Below are positions 5,542-35,696 of a DNA stretch of 40,168 bases, one piece after another. Position 1 is the first letter of the stretch. Each line of letters opens with the position of its first letter. This DNA is from an uncultured Atopobiaceae bacterium (GTDB lineage Bacteria > Actinomycetota > Coriobacteriia > Coriobacteriales > Atopobiaceae): NCBI GenBank assembly GCA_947625405.1, contig CANQOF010000016.1:1-40168 (forward strand). The letters are read 5' to 3'. Made by a program: the position numbers and the translations under genes. The notes beneath the pieces were generated by a model that was given only the letters and a program-made list of their open reading frames with translations, had not been told where the DNA came from and ran no database searches.

Positions 5542-6126
5542 ATGGGTGAGTCGACCGTCCACGCCACGGGAAATCCACGCCACGCCACCGGAGCCGCCAC
5601 GGGCTCGTGGACGCCGAGGAACGTGGCGGTGTGCGCGCTCTTCACCGCCCTTGCGCTCGTGCTTTCCTTCGTGGAGCTGCCGATCTTCCCCGCGGCCCCC
5701 TATCTCAAGTACGACCCCTCGGGCGTCATCGGCCTCGTCGCGGGCCTCGCCTTCGGCCCCGGGATCGGCGCCGTGGTGGCGGTGCTCCCTTGGGTGGTGC
5801 ATCTTTTCGTGGAGCCGTTCGGCGCGATCATGGCGCTTTTCTGCTCCGTGGCGACGGTCGTGCCGGCGGCGCTCATCTACCGCGCGAAGCCGTTCAAAGG
5901 CGGGCTCGTGCTCGCCCTCGTGGTTTCCGGTGCGCTTGCGCTCGTGGCCGCGATCATCGGCAACCTCGTGATCACCCCGCTCTACTCCGGCATGCCCGTC
6001 GAGGGGGTCGTCGCGATCATCGTCCCCATCCTCATCCCCTTCAACCTGCTGAAGATCTGCATCAACGCCGTGCTCGCGGCGCTTGCGCTCCTGCCCGTGA
6101 GTGCCATCGTCGGCCGTTGGGACTAG
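5542..6126 (+). CDS. ribU: Riboflavin ECF transporter substrate-binding S component RibU
   Basis: 194 residues with about six membrane helices, the size and hydropathy expected of an ECF S component. The N-terminal 'NVAVCALFTALALVLSFVE' with its Ala-rich first helix is the surface S components use to dock on EcfT. 'YLKYDPSGVIGLVAGLAFGP' resembles the RibU substrate loop. The FMN riboswitch immediately upstream identifies the substrate as riboflavin or flavin precursor, much more firmly than sequence alone. Start at ATG 5542, seven bases after GGAG. The ATPase gene follows after 6 bp. Confidence 0.95.
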   Translation: MGESTVHATGNPRHATGAATGSWTPRNVAVCALFTALALVLSFVELPIFPAAPYLKYDPSGVIGLVAGLAFGPGIGAVVAVLPWVVHLFVEPFGAIMALFCSVATVVPAALIYRAKPFKGGLVLALVVSGALALVAAIIGNLVITPLYSGMPVEGVVAIIVPILIPFNLLKICINAVLAALALLPVSAIVGRWD

Positions 6127-6132
6127 CGGCGT

Positions 6133-7983
6133 ATGCCGGCTGAGGGCGGGCGGGTCCCGCTCGAGCGCGAGGTGGCTCCGCGTTTCGCGGATGACGAGAT
6201 CGCGCGCCTCGAGGACGTGGGCTATAGCTTCGACGGAGGACGGAGCTGGGCGCTTTCGCGCGTGACGCTCGCGCTCTCGGGGCGTGAGCGCGTGTGCGTG
6301 ATGGGCGCGAACGGCTCCGGGAAGTCCACGCTCGCGCTCCTGATCGCGGGGCTTCGCGCGCCCGACGAGGGATCCGTGCGGCTCATGGGGCGCGCGTGCT
6401 TTTCCGACGGACTTCCCGAGAGCGAGGCGTACGCGAGCGCGCGGCGCCAGACGGGGCTCGTCTTCCAGGATCCGCGCGACCAGATCGTGGCGGGCGTGGT
6501 GGCGGATGACGTGACCTTCGGGCCCGAGAACCTCGCGCTTCCCGCGGGGGAGATCTGCCTTCGCGTGGCGCGCGAGCTCGATCGCGTGGGTGGGCTCGAC
6601 CTCGCGTGGCGGGACACCTCGGAGCTCTCTGGCGGCCAGGCGCAGCGCGTGGCGATTGCGAGCGCGATGGCGATGGAGCCCGCGCTCATGGTCTTCGACG
6701 AGGCGGCGGCGTTCTTGGATGTGCGTGCGCGCTCGGCGCTCCGGCGCCTCGCGATGCGGCTTTGCCGCGTGTGCGCGCAGGTGTGGGTGAGCCACGACGT
6801 CGAAGACGCGGCGGATGCCACGCGCCTCATCGTGCTCGCCGAGGGCAAGGTGGCCTTCGACGGAGCCCCCTCGGAGCTGCTCGTGGATGCCGAGCGGCTC
6901 TGCGCGCTCGGCCTCGAGCCGCCGTTCTGGATGCGCCTCGCCGACGCGCTTCGCGAGAGGGGCTGGGACCTCCCGCCCGTCTCAAGCGAATCCGACCTCG
7001 CACGCGCCATCGCCGCCCAAGACAGTGGGGACGGACCTTTTGTCTTGCGCGCAACGCCCCTACCAGCGAAAACGTCGCAAGACAGTGGGGACGGACCTTT
7101 CGTCTTGGAAAAACCGCAGGTGGTGGGCTCGCCGCAAGACAAAAGAACCGTCCCCACTGTCTTGGAGGGGTTCGAGGCACGGGGCCTTGGGTTTTCCTAT
7201 GCGGAGGGCGAGGTGCTCCATGGCGTGGACCTCACCGTCCGCTCGGGCGAGCTCGTGGCCGTCGTGGGGGCCACGGGCTCGGGCAAGACGACCCTCGCGC
7301 GCCTGCTCGCGGGGCTCGTGGCGCCCAAGCGGGGCTCGCTCTCCTTCAAGGGCATCGACCTCGGCACGGCGAAGGGGAGGCGCGGCGCGAGCGGGCGCAT
7401 CGGCTTCGTGATGCAGCAGCCCGAGCGCCAGCTCTTCGCCGAGAGCGTGGCGAGGGACGTGGCCTTCGGGCCGGAGAATCTCGGACTTTCCGCGACGGAG
7501 GTGGAGGGGAGGGTCTCGCGGGCGCTTTCTCGCCTCGGCATTGCCCACCTCGCCGATCGCTCGCCCTTCGAGCTCTCGGGTGGCCAACAGCGCCTCGTGG
7601 CGCTCGCGGGCGTGGCCGCGCTCGAGCCCGAGGCGTGGGTGCTCGACGAGCCGCTCGCGGGCCTCGACGCCGAGGCGAGGGCGGCCGTCTCCGCGCTCAT
7701 CGACGAGCAGCGCGCGGGGGGGTGCGTGATGGTGCTCGTCACCCACGACATGGACCAGGCTGCGGGAGCAGACCGCATCCTCGCGCTCGAGCGGGGGCAG
7801 GTGGCGCTCGAGGGCACGCCCAAGGAGGTCTTCTCGCACGCGCGGGAGCTCGAGGAAATGGGCCTCGGCCTCCCGAAGCCGCTTCGCTTCGCGCACGCGC
7901 TTCGCGAGCTTGGCGCGCGCATCGGCGAGCCCCTCACCTTCGAGGCGCTCCTCGCCGAGCTCTGCGAGGGGAGGCGCCCATGA
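6133..7983 (+). CDS. ecfA: Fused double ECF-type ABC ATPase with a repeat-encoded linker
   Basis: 616 residues that carry both ATPase subunits of an energy-coupling-factor importer on one chain. First half (about 20-290): Walker A GANGSGKST, Q-loop QDPRDQ, signature LSGGQ, Walker B VFDEA, H-loop SHD. Second half (about 346-616): Walker A GATGSGKTT, QQPERQ, LSGGQ, VLDEP, THD. All catalytic residues are kept; the first Walker B has DEA instead of DEP. Residues 296-344 are translated from a 147-bp repeat element (7018-7164) and contain QDSGDGPFVL twice plus the inverted unit QDKRTVPTVL. ATG at 6133 has only a weak ribosome site, so coupling to ribU is likely. The stop overlaps the ecfT start as ATGA. 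Confidence 0.93.
   Translation: MPAEGGRVPLEREVAPRFADDEIARLEDVGYSFDGGRSWALSRVTLALSGRERVCVMGANGSGKSTLALLIAGLRAPDEGSVRLMGRACFSDGLPESEAYASARRQTGLVFQDPRDQIVAGVVADDVTFGPENLALPAGEICLRVARELDRVGGLDLAWRDTSELSGGQAQRVAIASAMAMEPALMVFDEAAAFLDVRARSALRRLAMRLCRVCAQVWVSHDVEDAADATRLIVLAEGKVAFDGAPSELLVDAERLCALGLEPPFWMRLADALRERGWDLPPVSSESDLARAIAAQDSGDGPFVLRATPLPAKTSQDSGDGPFVLEKPQVVGSPQDKRTVPTVLEGFEARGLGFSYAEGEVLHGVDLTVRSGELVAVVGATGSGKTTLARLLAGLVAPKRGSLSFKGIDLGTAKGRRGASGRIGFVMQQPERQLFAESVARDVAFGPENLGLSATEVEGRVSRALSRLGIAHLADRSPFELSGGQQRLVALAGVAALEPEAWVLDEPLAGLDAEARAAVSALIDEQRAGGCVMVLVTHDMDQAAGADRILALERGQVALEGTPKEVFSHARELEEMGLGLPKPLRFAHALRELGARIGEPLTFEALLAELCEGRRP
7018..7164 (+). repeat. 147-bp composite REP-like element, copy A (inside ecfA)
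   Basis: Three 30-bp units lie at 7018-7047, 7078-7107 and 7135-7164 (the last inverted). Each unit is bounded by CAAGAC and GTCTTG arms around a GTGGGGACGG core. The spacing is 60 then 57 bp. Exactly the same length, order, orientation and spacer sequence classes occur in the reverse-oriented element at 35550-35696. The length is 49 codons, and the reading frame through it has no stop, so the host gene stays open. It lies at the junction of the two ATPase halves. Confidence 0.95.
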
Positions 7984-8804: not shown

Positions 8805-10703
8805 GTGGACGAGACGATACGCTGGGGCATCATCGGTGTGGGGCACATTGCGCACCGCTTTGCGACCTCGCTTTCCCACGTAGAGGGCGCCGAGCTCGTG
8901 GCGTGCGCGGGTCGCACGACCGAGCACGTGACGGCCTTTGCCGAGGAGTTCGGCTGCGAGGCGAAGCCCACCCCCGAGGCGCTCTTGGCCGACTCAGCGA
9001 TCGACGTGGTCTACCTCGCCGTTCCCCACCTGCAGCATGCGCCGTGGGCGCTCGACGCCATCGACGCCGGAAAGGCGGTGCTCGCGGAGAAGCCGGCCTT
9101 CGTGTCGTGCGCCCAGGCCATCGCCGTCACCGACGCGGCGCAGCGCGCGGGCGTGCTCTTCGTGGAGGCCATGAAGCCGAGGTTCCAGCCGCTCTGGAAG
9201 AAGCTCCTCGAGCTCGTGGAATCGGGCTCCCTCGGCGCGCTCCGGTCCATCGACGCGCGGATCGCCATGACCTACCCCGAGAAACTCGAGGGCTACCTCG
9301 CCGAACCGGTGCAGGGGGGCGTCCTCCTCGATCTCGGCACGTATGCCGCGAGCTGGCTCGACGCCTTCACCACGGGAAACCCCGAGGACGTGGCGGCAAG
9401 CCACGTGTGGCGAGACGACGTGGACGTGGAGGACGTCGCGGATCTTCGCCTCGGCGAGGTCGCCTGCCATCTCGAGGCGGCCGCCACGCGCGACGAATCG
9501 GCCTGCACGCTCGCCTTTGAGCACGCGACCCTGCGCGCGTGGCCGCTTCACAGGCCCACAGACCTGCGGATCCAATGGGAGGATGGCCGCGAGGAGGCCC
9601 TCTCGGCGCCCTATGGGGGCGACGACTTCACGGGCGAGATCACCCACGTCTGCCGGCTCCTTCGCGAGGGCGCGACGGAGAGCCCGCTCATGCCGCATAC
9701 CGCGACCATTCGCTGCGCGCGGATCCTCGACGCGTGCGCCTCGGGGTTCGATCGCCTCGGCATCGCTATGGAGCTCGGCGAGATCTGCGGGCGCGACGCG
9801 ATCTTCTTGAACGAGCCGATGGCCGACCACACGAGCTTCGAGATCGGCGGCCCCGCGGACGTCTTCGTAGAGGCGCCTTCCATCACGAAGCTCTCCGCCG
9901 CGCTCAAGCTCCTGAGAGAGAAGGGCGTGCCCGCGTTTGTGCTTGGCAATGGCTCTGACCTACTGGTTTCCGACTGGGGGCTCCGCGCGTGCGTCGTCTC
10001 CACCGCGCGCTTGAAGACGATTCGCGTCGACGCGAGCTGGATTGCGCACTTCGGGGTCGCGCGCGTCTTCGCGGACTGCGGCGTGAGTCTGAAGGACCTC
10101 GCCGGCGCCACGGCCTACGCCGGCCTCAAGGGCATGGAATTCGCCTCGGGCATCCCCGGCACGGTGGGAGGCGCCATCTACATGAACGCCGGCGCCTACG
10201 ACGGTTGCATGGCGGAGGTGGTGGAGAGCGTGCTCGCGTGCCTCCCAAGCGGCGAGATGAAGGGCTTCAGCGCTCGCGAGCTCGATTTCGACTACCGCAC
10301 GAGCAGGGTGCGCGAGGACGGGCTCGCGGTGCTCTCGGCCACGTTTTTGCTGAGGCCCGAGGATCCGAAGGTGGTGCAGGCGCGCATCGACGAGCTCACC
10401 GAGCTTCGCGCCGCGAAGCAGCCCCTCGACGTGCCGAGCGCGGGATCCACGTTCAAGCGCCCCGAGGGCCACTACGCGGGCAAGCTCATCGCCGACGCTG
10501 GGCTCAAGGGCACGCGCATCGGCGGCGCGGAGGTGTCGACGAAGCACGCGGGCTTCATCGTGAACGCGGGCGGTGCCACGGCGAAGGACGTGAACGAGCT
10601 TATCGACCTCGTGATTCGCAAGGTCGAGGAGACATCGGGCGTGACGCTCGAACCCGAGGTCCAGCGCATCGGGCCGTATCTCGAGACTCCGCGCCTGGAT
10701 TAA
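8805..10703 (+). CDS. murB: Gfo/Idh/MocA oxidoreductase fused to UDP-N-acetylenolpyruvoylglucosamine reductase (MurB)
   Basis: 632 residues in one frame. Residues 1 to about 320 are a Gfo/Idh/MocA NAD(P)-dependent oxidoreductase: IGVGHIAHRF nucleotide loop, AEKP (the usual catalytic-lysine motif EKP), and the C-terminal sheet. Residues about 322-632 are a complete MurB: TSFEIGGPADV and GNGSDLLV FAD-binding segments, IPGTVGGAIYMNAGAYDG, YRTSR, the proton-donor Ser548 in SAGSTFKRP, and the terminal EPEVQRIG glutamate motif. MurB reduces UDP-GlcNAc-enolpyruvate to UDP-MurNAc in wall synthesis. GTG start at 8805 with AAGGGGAG upstream. An internal ATG at 9768 falls at the domain boundary but has no ribosome site, so separate MurB synthesis is less likely. 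No stop separates the domains. Confidence 0.9.
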   Translation: MDETIRWGIIGVGHIAHRFATSLSHVEGAELVACAGRTTEHVTAFAEEFGCEAKPTPEALLADSAIDVVYLAVPHLQHAPWALDAIDAGKAVLAEKPAFVSCAQAIAVTDAAQRAGVLFVEAMKPRFQPLWKKLLELVESGSLGALRSIDARIAMTYPEKLEGYLAEPVQGGVLLDLGTYAASWLDAFTTGNPEDVAASHVWRDDVDVEDVADLRLGEVACHLEAAATRDESACTLAFEHATLRAWPLHRPTDLRIQWEDGREEALSAPYGGDDFTGEITHVCRLLREGATESPLMPHTATIRCARILDACASGFDRLGIAMELGEICGRDAIFLNEPMADHTSFEIGGPADVFVEAPSITKLSAALKLLREKGVPAFVLGNGSDLLVSDWGLRACVVSTARLKTIRVDASWIAHFGVARVFADCGVSLKDLAGATAYAGLKGMEFASGIPGTVGGAIYMNAGAYDGCMAEVVESVLACLPSGEMKGFSARELDFDYRTSRVREDGLAVLSATFLLRPEDPKVVQARIDELTELRAAKQPLDVPSAGSTFKRPEGHYAGKLIADAGLKGTRIGGAEVSTKHAGFIVNAGGATAKDVNELIDLVIRKVEETSGVTLEPEVQRIGPYLETPRLD

Positions 10704-13092: not shown

Positions 13093-13228
13093 GGCCCCTC
13101 CCTTCGCCGCGATGGCGCCCTACGCGGGGCTCCATGGTAGCAGCCCCTTCCTACGCCCCCGCGAACTCCACAAGCTGGAAGGGAGGGGAGCAGGGGATGG
13201 GGGTGGCTCTACGCACTCGTTCCCGCTT

Positions 13229-13454
13229 GCCGCAGGTGGCCTTGCGGTGTACAGCCACTGCCATAGGGATCCTTGCGGTGTATTTCGAGCCGCAGATGGC
13301 CTTGCGGTGTGCGGGGCCTCTGCCATAGCGATGCTTGCGGTGTGGGAAAACGCCGCGGACGCCCTTGCGGTGTGGGGAATCGCGCCGTTTTAAGGCGAAT
13401 AACTCCGCGGCGCGTACACCGCAAAGCCACCCGTGCCATGAGATACACCGCAAG
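13229..13454. repeat. Periodic CTTGCGGTGT array
   Basis: Five forward copies of CTTGCGGTGT start at 13241, 13272, 13301, 13334 and 13364, spaced 31, 29, 33 and 30 bp. Two copies in the opposite orientation start at 13416 (one mismatch) and 13445, 29 bp apart. A higher-order unit of about 60 bp is visible: GCCGCAGRTGGCCTTGCGG begins at 13229 and 13289, and a degenerate form at 13352. CTGCCATAG-containing halves lie between the copies. Between the forward and reverse arms lies CGCCGTTTTAAGGCG, a small dyad. Confidence 0.9.
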
Positions 13455-13469
13455 GGCACCCGTGGCGTG

Positions 13470-13566
13470 GCGTCGAACGGCATGATGGTGCGCCGTCCGA
13501 TCGTCGTGGGCGACGGTTTCGCGCTTTTCGGCTTCAACGAAAACGCCTGGGCGAGCGCCCTGCTCT
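13470..13566 (+). pseudogene. 3' fragment of an arsC/spx-like gene
   Basis: Reading the plus strand gives the peptide ASNGMMVRRPIVVGDGFALF and then GFNENAWASALL. This aligns with the C-terminus of the intact arsC-like protein encoded on the minus strand at 17348-17713 (…GFNEKDWESALL). DNA identity looks about 90% over the fragment. The intact gene's stop codon is changed and all N-terminal sequence, including the CxxC, is absent. The fragment is inverted relative to the intact gene and abuts the CTTGCGGTGT array. Confidence 0.88.
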
Positions 13567-16385: not shown

Positions 16386-17270
16386 GTGGCCACCAACACC
16401 GCCACAGACAAGTACGGCTACGTCGCGCACATGAACTGGCGCGCGTTCGTCGTGCCCTCGGGGATCGCCTGCCTCATCGCGAGCTTCTCCGCGGCGAGCT
16501 TCCTCATGCTCCTGCCGTCGATGGAAACCTCCGACGCGCAGGTGCTCGCCTCGGGGCTCGACAAGCTCGTGAGGGAGGAGAGCGATTCGGTTCTCGACTT
16601 GAACTTCGGCGACTCGCACATCCTCGCCTCGCTCGCCTTCGTGGCGTTCGTGGCGATCGGCCTCGTGATCCTCTCCTACGCGCGAAACGACCGCATCGCC
16701 TATATGGAGGCCTTTCCGCACATCAACCTCGCCTTCACGAGGGAAGAGGTCGCGCAATCCATCTCGGTGCGCAAGCGCTGCACGGCGATCGCGATCGTGA
16801 TCTACCTCCTCGCCGCGGGCGCGTTCACGCTCTTCAAACTCTTCGGCCTCTCGCACCTCGCCACGGGCTGCGCGTTTGCCCTCGGCGCGCTCGCCACGTG
16901 GGTGATCGTCCACGGCGGCATGCGGGCGAAGCGCGAGGACCTGTTCGCCTACAACTTCGAGGCCCTCAGGCACACGAGCTTCTACGAGCTCAACGCCGAG
17001 GCGAAGGCGAAGAATCGCGAGTGGATGCTCATGGCGAAGCGCCGCTCGATGCTCGCCCAGAGCGCGAACCGCGTGATCCTCACGGCGGGCGCCCTCGGCT
17101 CGCTCGCCCTCTATTCGCTGCCCTCGCTCGCGACGCCCTACTACTGGGTGTCCATCGCCGCGGCGTGCGGGATCGCGATGCTCAACACCCACGCCGCCAT
17201 GGAGAAGACGCGCCGCCTTTCCGTGATCGACGGCGACCTCTATCGCGTGGCGGATGCACCCGCGAAATAG
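16386..17270 (+). CDS. Multi-pass membrane protein of unknown function
   Basis: About 294 residues with six probable membrane helices: one pair near the N-terminus (about 22-42 and 79-97), a central pair (about 130-150 and 157-177) and a C-terminal pair (about 228-243 and 250-268). A charged cytoplasmic loop (about 178-225, rich in Lys/Arg and Glu) connects the last two pairs. No family motif is recognised. The GTG at 16386 preceded by GAGAG is preferred; an in-frame ATG at 16350 would add 12 basic residues. It is a single gene, divergent from the lipase-CorA pair. Confidence 0.7.
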   Translation: MATNTATDKYGYVAHMNWRAFVVPSGIACLIASFSAASFLMLLPSMETSDAQVLASGLDKLVREESDSVLDLNFGDSHILASLAFVAFVAIGLVILSYARNDRIAYMEAFPHINLAFTREEVAQSISVRKRCTAIAIVIYLLAAGAFTLFKLFGLSHLATGCAFALGALATWVIVHGGMRAKREDLFAYNFEALRHTSFYELNAEAKAKNREWMLMAKRRSMLAQSANRVILTAGALGSLALYSLPSLATPYYWVSIAAACGIAMLNTHAAMEKTRRLSVIDGDLYRVADAPAK

Positions 17271-17347
17271 CGGGTCGCAAGGCGCTTGCGTGAGGTAGTT
17301 GACGGCTTCGTCGCACGTTGCCGCACGATGCACGGCGGTGGCGCTTG

Positions 17348-17713
17348 TTAGAGCAGGGCGCTTTCCCAGTCCTTCTCGTTGAAGCCGAAGAGCGCGAAGC
17401 CGTCGCCCACCACGATCGGACGGCGCACCATCATGCCGTTCGACGCGAGGAGCGCGAAGGCATCGTCATCGCCCATGCCCGCGTCGAGCCGCTCCTTCAC
17501 GTTCTGCTTGCGGTAGAGCTGGCCCGAGGTGTTGAACATCTTGCGGATGGTGGCGCCGCTCTCCGCCTGCCACGCGCGGAGCTCGTCTTCGGTGGGGTTG
17601 TCCTCCTTGATGTTGCGCTCGGTGTAGGCCACATGGTGCCCATCCAGCCACTTGCGCGCCTTTGCGCAGGTGGAGCAGCCCTTAAAGCAAAGAAAGGTGA
17701 CCGTTTCGGGCAT
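17348..17713 (-). CDS. ArsC/Spx-family thioredoxin-fold protein
   Basis: 121 residues, the normal size for the ArsC/Spx/YffB family. The N-terminal FLCFKGCSTCAKARKWL carries the CxxC redox pair; the central 'TRKMFNTSG'-like segment TIRKMFNTSGQLYRK and the C-terminal MVRRPIVVGDG are family hallmarks (the Arg-Pro turn). Family members reduce arsenate by glutaredoxin or thioredoxin chemistry, or regulate RNA polymerase (Spx); the sequence does not decide between these. ATG at 17713 with GGGA upstream gives a start just before the first strand. A related 3' fragment lies at 13470-13566. Confidence 0.88.
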   Translation of the reverse strand: MPETVTFLCFKGCSTCAKARKWLDGHHVAYTERNIKEDNPTEDELRAWQAESGATIRKMFNTSGQLYRKQNVKERLDAGMGDDDAFALLASNGMMVRRPIVVGDGFALFGFNEKDWESALL

Positions 17714-17812: not shown

Positions 17813-17925
17813 CAAGACAGTGGGGACGGACCTTTTGCCTTGCGCACAGCGCCCCTAGCAGCGAAAACGTAGAAGGACAGTGGGGACGGACCTTTTGTCT
17901 TGCGGATCCGTCCCCGCGGTCGTGC
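17813..17925. repeat. Decayed copy of the 147-bp REP-like element
   Basis: Units at 17813-17842 and 17873-17902 match the first two units of the intact element with the same 60-bp offset, and the spacer between them (GCGCCCCTAGCAGCGAAAAC) is conserved. The second inter-unit spacer is missing and the inverted third unit survives only as a truncated form (GATCCGTCCCCGCGGTCGTG, about 17906-17925). The frame that is open in the ecfA copy is interrupted here by TAG in AAAACGTAG. It lies between the arsC-like gene and the peptide precursor gene. Confidence 0.9.
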
Positions 17926-35549: not shown

Positions 35550-35696
35550 CAAGACACGAGGGACGGTTCTTTTGTCTTGCGGCAGGTCGTCTACCAGCGC
35601 ATTTTCCAAGACAAAAGATCCGTCCCCACTGTCTTGCGACGTTTGCCCAGCTAGAGACGCTGCGCGCAAGACAAAAGAACCGTCCCTATCGTCTTG
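35550..35696 (-). repeat. 147-bp composite REP-like element, copy B
   Basis: Units at 35550-35579, 35607-35636 and 35667-35696. Read on the minus strand these give two direct units and one inverted unit at offsets 0, 60 and 117, identical in total length and arrangement to the ecfA copy. The conserved spacers are also recognisable (GCAGCGTCTCTAGC and the GCGCTGGTAGACGACC type). The frame that is open in ecfA is open here as well (SQDSGDGSFVL…QDKRTVPRVL). It lies in the gap between the terminator and gltB and interrupts no gene. Confidence 0.95.

Follow-up and report, generated by a model that had tools for sequence, protein, structure and literature searches.

A REP/REPIN-type palindromic element as the probable interdomain linker of a fused ECF ATPase in an uncultured Atopobiaceae bacterium

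REP monomers, dimers and clusters have been described in frame inside the ORFs of known proteins, where they encode 20-30 residues or, at the upper end, 43-82 (Di Nocera et al. 2013, PMC3733652), and the same authors suggested that flexible linkers and loops may tolerate such REP insertions neutrally (PMC3733652). The classic case is that of the Rickettsia palindromic elements (RPEs), ~150 bp long, which functional genes carry as in-frame inserts (Ogata et al. 2000, as given in PMC10969869), and according to that account nearly half of the RPE copies are located in genes (PMC10969869). The GTAG tetranucleotide is a typical feature of REPs (PMC8266576). Here we describe a REP/REPIN-type element that occupies, in frame, the space between the two halves of a fused energy-coupling-factor (ECF) ATPase, a motor protein of vitamin transport. 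Our best explanation overall, to which we assign a probability of roughly 0.86, is that the EcfA gene was already fused when a REP/REPIN copy inserted into its linker, and that translation of the copy now yields a disordered tether. The window, i.e., the whole 40,168-nt stretch of DNA that was analysed, is contig CANQOF010000016.1 of an uncultured Atopobiaceae bacterium (genome G000), and the features of the EcfA locus are as follows.

5623-6126, + strand: likely ECF S component, start provisional (weak match to an NCBIfam folate-type S family, below the cut-off)
6133-7983, + strand: EcfA, a 616-aa fused energy-coupling-factor ATPase whose two ABC ATPase domains are encoded by a single ORF
6133-7017, + strand: EcfA half 1, codons 1-295
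7018-7164, + strand: REP/REPIN-type element, 147 bp, in frame, EcfA codons 296-344
7018-7047, + strand: palindromic unit 1, CAAGACA...TGTCTTG
7048-7077, + strand: spacer 1, 30 bp, with CTAC at 7060-7063 within CCCCTACC
7078-7107, + strand: palindromic unit 2
7108-7134, + strand: spacer 2, 27 bp, with GTGG at 7120-7123
7135-7164, - strand: palindromic unit 3, in the opposite orientation to the first two units
7165-7983, + strand: EcfA half 2 and the stop codon
7980-8777, + strand: ECF T component, EcfT/CbiQ-like (NCBIfam match below the cut-off)

The ORF at 6133-7983 spans the element in frame: EcfA codon 296 begins at 7018, and the 147 nt correspond to 49 stop-free codons between the ATPase halves, as the first-pass annotation of this DNA had described. 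The insert consists of three imperfect 30-bp palindromes separated by spacers of 30 and 27 bp, and the encoded peptide reads QDSGDGPFVL-RATPLPAKTS-QDSGDGPFVL-EKPQVVGSP-QDKRTVPTVL, in agreement with the earlier observation of two QDSGDGPFVL repeats plus QDKRTVPTVL; an in-frame TTG codon is present at the end of the element. Judging from the reading frame, EcfA is probably translated through the element, and the predicted tryptic peptides of the linker are TVPTVLEGFEAR and another ending in ...AIAAQDSGDGPFVLR.

Both EcfA halves are matched by NCBIfam ECF ATPase models, and the residues that are invariant across 19 fused homologues include the Walker A and signature motifs of both halves as well as their Walker B/H-loop residues, which bears out the initial view that the ATPase motifs on either side of the insert are intact. 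Both ECF ATPase domains are complete, with none of the catalytic motifs missing, and one ORF encodes them. Due to the T gene downstream and the probable S gene upstream, the locus appears to be an ECF transporter operon. It resembles known fused tandem-ATPase EcfA systems, which likewise have two ECF ATPase domains per chain with adjacent S and T components, and compared with them the origin of the linker is the sole unusual feature here. Elsewhere in the window, positions 8805-10703 hold a single 632-aa ORF with apparent oxidoreductase-like N-terminal and MurB-like C-terminal halves (named by eye).

Using AlphaFold2 with a 19-sequence alignment, we obtained a model with pLDDT mostly ~90 or above in both ATPase domains (pTM 0.85) and below 50 for residues 300-342, i.e., nearly the whole element. 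Since this low-pLDDT stretch lies between confidently modelled domains, the EcfA linker is predicted to be a disordered tether. Foldseek matches for the model are ECF and other tandem ABC ATPases. We would expect the effect of the element on transport to be near-neutral.

In the window's own genome, the 30-bp unit has 59 matches with up to three mismatches, compared with 0 for a reversed-pattern control, and the full-length 147-bp element occurs about 10 times. Across four genomes of the genus, we found 39 distinct full copies, 35 of exactly 147 bp and four of 148 bp; because this length recurs across copies, it is a property of the element and not of the EcfA site. The same four genomes contain ~92 element loci, six of which lie inside genes, at two sites (EcfA and a response regulator), and the remaining ~86 are intergenic as far as they could be scored, with a few at contig ends unscored, in a census built from fetched loci and a codon-usage model instead of full annotation. 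With up to two mismatches allowed, the unit pattern is absent from the 134 family genomes screened outside the genus (140 family genomes in total) and from 295 further genomes sampled from the phylum, and the element appears genus-specific within the genomes screened. The genus relatives with named records are all metagenome-assembled genomes (MAGs), and from isolate names of the form 'Lapin-...' we read the habitat of the related contigs as rabbit gut. Beyond EcfA, the window contains two further copies and a site of interest for mobility:

17266-17346, strand not assigned: place occupied by the transposase (RAYT) gene in G001 and G005; here ~80 bp without the gene
17813-17902, + strand: second window copy, made of two units and lying between genes; its orthologue in G001 and G005 is next to the RAYT gene
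35550-35696, - strand: third window copy, full 147 bp, intergenic

Other repeats are also seen in the window. A different, intergenic family at 13212-13466 carries a CCTTGCGGTGTA-like motif several times in both orientations; 13470-13566 and 17350-17446 form a 97-bp inverted pair that is 92% alike, and part of the Spx/ArsC-like gene located at 17350 recurs at 13470, probably as a partial duplicate. The contig starts with a direct repeat of at least 80 bp (1-195), with a 115-bp period and 99% identity.

The element has the characteristics of REPs and REPINs, i.e., short palindromic units in many, mostly intergenic copies, with oppositely oriented paired units forming one large hairpin. The predicted structure of the 147 bases is a single long hairpin (DNA z -9.5; RNA -91.8 kcal/mol, z-score -11.3), and over 35 aligned copies standard pairs are kept in 89.9% of cells, compared with 40-50% when the partner columns are slid. 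GTAG is found in spacer 2 in 31 of the 35 full copies, GTGG being confined to the EcfA copy of the window; the conserved GTAG sits in the spacer and not directly beside the 30-bp palindromic unit. Two relatives, G001 and G005, have a gene for a 258-residue Y1 transposase (PF01797) with the element on both sides, whose best NCBIfam match, below the cut-off, is 'REP-associated tyrosine transposase' (RAYT). The two proteins are 92% identical to each other, and the next best relative within the family reaches 51%; each of the two genomes possesses a cognate RAYT flanked by repeats. A RAYT in the window's own genome (98.5% complete) was ruled out by negative Pfam PF01797 and direct protein searches: at the orthologous site the gene is missing, and one of the flanking element copies (17813-17902) is kept. 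From these sequence comparisons, mobility of the element is probably driven by the RAYT. The label 'mobile-type' in the first-pass annotation is therefore borne out by copy number, presence/absence polymorphism and the element-flanked RAYT in two relatives, although not by a RAYT in the same genome. The target-site duplication expected of a MITE of a DDE transposase is not visible at the flanks of the EcfA insert, the one site inspected.

Each of the six genomes of the genus has a fused EcfA gene, as do several other genera of the family. The element is present in three of the six (G000, G001 and G005), and ordinary linkers are found in G002, G003 and G004. Because fused genes lacking the element exist, the fusion is older than the insert, and the comparison supports entry of the element into the linker of an EcfA gene whose halves were already joined. 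Insertion into the linker of a fused gene was one of two readings offered at the outset, together with the suggestion to align the ecfA genes of close relatives, and this alignment indeed yields fused genes without the 49 residues. In G001, the element is 147 bp long and has the same place and frame as in G000; in G005 the insert has a greater length, the differences of 9, 9, 30 and 33 nt each being divisible by three. The element did not insert cleanly. Between the conserved flanks, G003 and G004 have ~25-30 residues, whereas G000 and G001 have almost nothing there besides the element, so that ~20-26 residues of the non-carrier linker are missing. Part of the old linker was thus lost, either with the insertion or after it.

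We prefer a single insertion in an ancestor, followed by homogenisation and loss, because the CCCCTACC haplotype in spacer 1 is confined to the three EcfA copies. Independent insertions into the same linker in different lineages, i.e., an insertion hot spot, would agree with the likeness of each EcfA copy's units to those of its own genome, the G000 and G001 units being closer to these than to each other, and with a presence pattern that requires two changes on the species tree, in which the four-species clade has support of 100/100 and the branching inside it is weak. However, we consider a hot spot unlikely: orientation, frame and boundaries are identical in G000 and G001, spacer sharing of the extent seen among the EcfA copies is attained by only 3.7% of random copy triples from the same three genomes, and the EcfA copies differ at 23-26 of 147 positions, a divergence comparable to that of orthologous intergenic copies (8-31 of 147).

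The second gene is a NarL/LuxR-type response regulator (Response_reg and GerE), in which in-frame units of the element are found in the REC-HTH linker in three species:

G001, L163:1-561: two units (66 bp)
G004, L202:1486-2040: two units (63 bp, 31+2+30)
G000 (the window's own genome), L203:1501-2034: one unit of 31 bp

The units always lie between the receiver and the DNA-binding domain with the frame preserved, and the response regulators of G005 and G002 contain no element units. Taken with EcfA, the surviving gene-borne copies therefore occupy two sites, both of them interdomain linkers.

All 36 other full copies are open in frame 0, the one that EcfA uses, an openness that exceeds a naive mutation model, which was itself poorly calibrated and failed for other frames too. 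A selected peptide frame in the element was rejected on a column shuffle (P = 0.21) and on intergenic differences that are flat over the three register positions, and for these reasons the open frame is treated as incidental. Codon-position bias does not support selection on the linker residues, the substitutions by codon position among the EcfA copies (7/6/13, 8/7/8 and 9/7/9) being inconsistent between species pairs. One could still imagine an element suited to life in genes, whose fixed 147 bp and permanently open frame would provide a ready-made interdomain linker that is rewritten in step with the intergenic repeats, and whose hairpin could also time ribosomes during folding. We regard this as quite unlikely; if true, part of a protein would evolve together with a mobile DNA family.

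The hairpin could alternatively stop or pause ribosomes, or half 2 could start separately, giving two chains or a regulated ratio of the halves. The predicted RNA fold (-91.8 kcal/mol, z-score -11.3) is equally strong for gene-borne and intergenic copies, and the in-frame TTG at the end of the element would offer a start; nevertheless, the frame survives the length changes in G005 and in the response regulator, and fused EcfA is ancestral, making this explanation very unlikely. It is extremely improbable that the element inserted between separate ecfA genes and fused them by removing the stop and start, the other reading of the first-pass annotation: the element does lie exactly between the two ATPase halves, but element-free fused genes in G002, G003, G004 and other genera of the family refute it. 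A repeat-mediated misjoin during assembly is scarcely credible, even though the carriers with names are MAGs and a single sample yielded both G001 and G005: the arrangement recurs on three separate contigs whose sequences have diverged on either side of it, and the ECF S and T genes are in place.

In our best explanation, the 49 EcfA residues derive from a full-length REP/REPIN-type palindromic mobile element, which would have entered the non-conserved linker in an ancestor of the carrier species and taken the place of part of the old linker. Three properties may explain why the insert was tolerated: a length divisible by three, a frame that was open by chance, and a site between independently folding domains. 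The element would now be translated as a disordered tether that keeps both ATPase subunits in one chain, its units may have drifted toward the variant of each genome (concerted evolution), and at least one lineage would have lost the EcfA copy or had it replaced.

The comparison before and after insertion makes a gene-borne repeat a dated event. Within a single genus, some fused genes contain the insert and others lack it, a second linker has zero, one or two units, and only part of the relatives possess the transposase. This allows tests of how mobile palindromes turn into protein sequence, of whether linker length and composition are important in a fused ECF ATPase, and of whether gene-borne copies continue to be homogenised with the intergenic population.

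Among described systems, REPINs and BIMEs with their RAYT (TnpA_REP; PMC3116915, PMC8266576) share with the present element the inverted short palindromes, the many intergenic copies and the repeat-flanked RAYT. The GTAG conserved in 31 of 35 copies lies in the spacer here and not directly 5' of the 30-bp palindromic unit (PMC3116915, PMC8266576). Further differences are that each element has three units and that the RAYT does not reach the cut-off of the NCBIfam model for the named family. With the RPEs, to the extent described in the sources cited above, the element appears to share in-frame presence inside protein-coding genes, seen here in two genes; their large in-gene share is not matched (6 of ~92 loci, at two sites), and two relatives have a RAYT along with the element. 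Intragenic REPs ('REP-decorated' proteins, PMC3733652) are likewise in-frame repeats inside genes. In contrast to them, the element belongs to another family and phylum, it constitutes the interdomain linker itself, and its documentation comprises orthologues that lack it, three carrier species, a second gene and a cognate RAYT (cf. PMC3733652). Repeat-bearing proteins are already published; the fused EcfA is a fresh example, for which the element family is new and the data for comparison are good.
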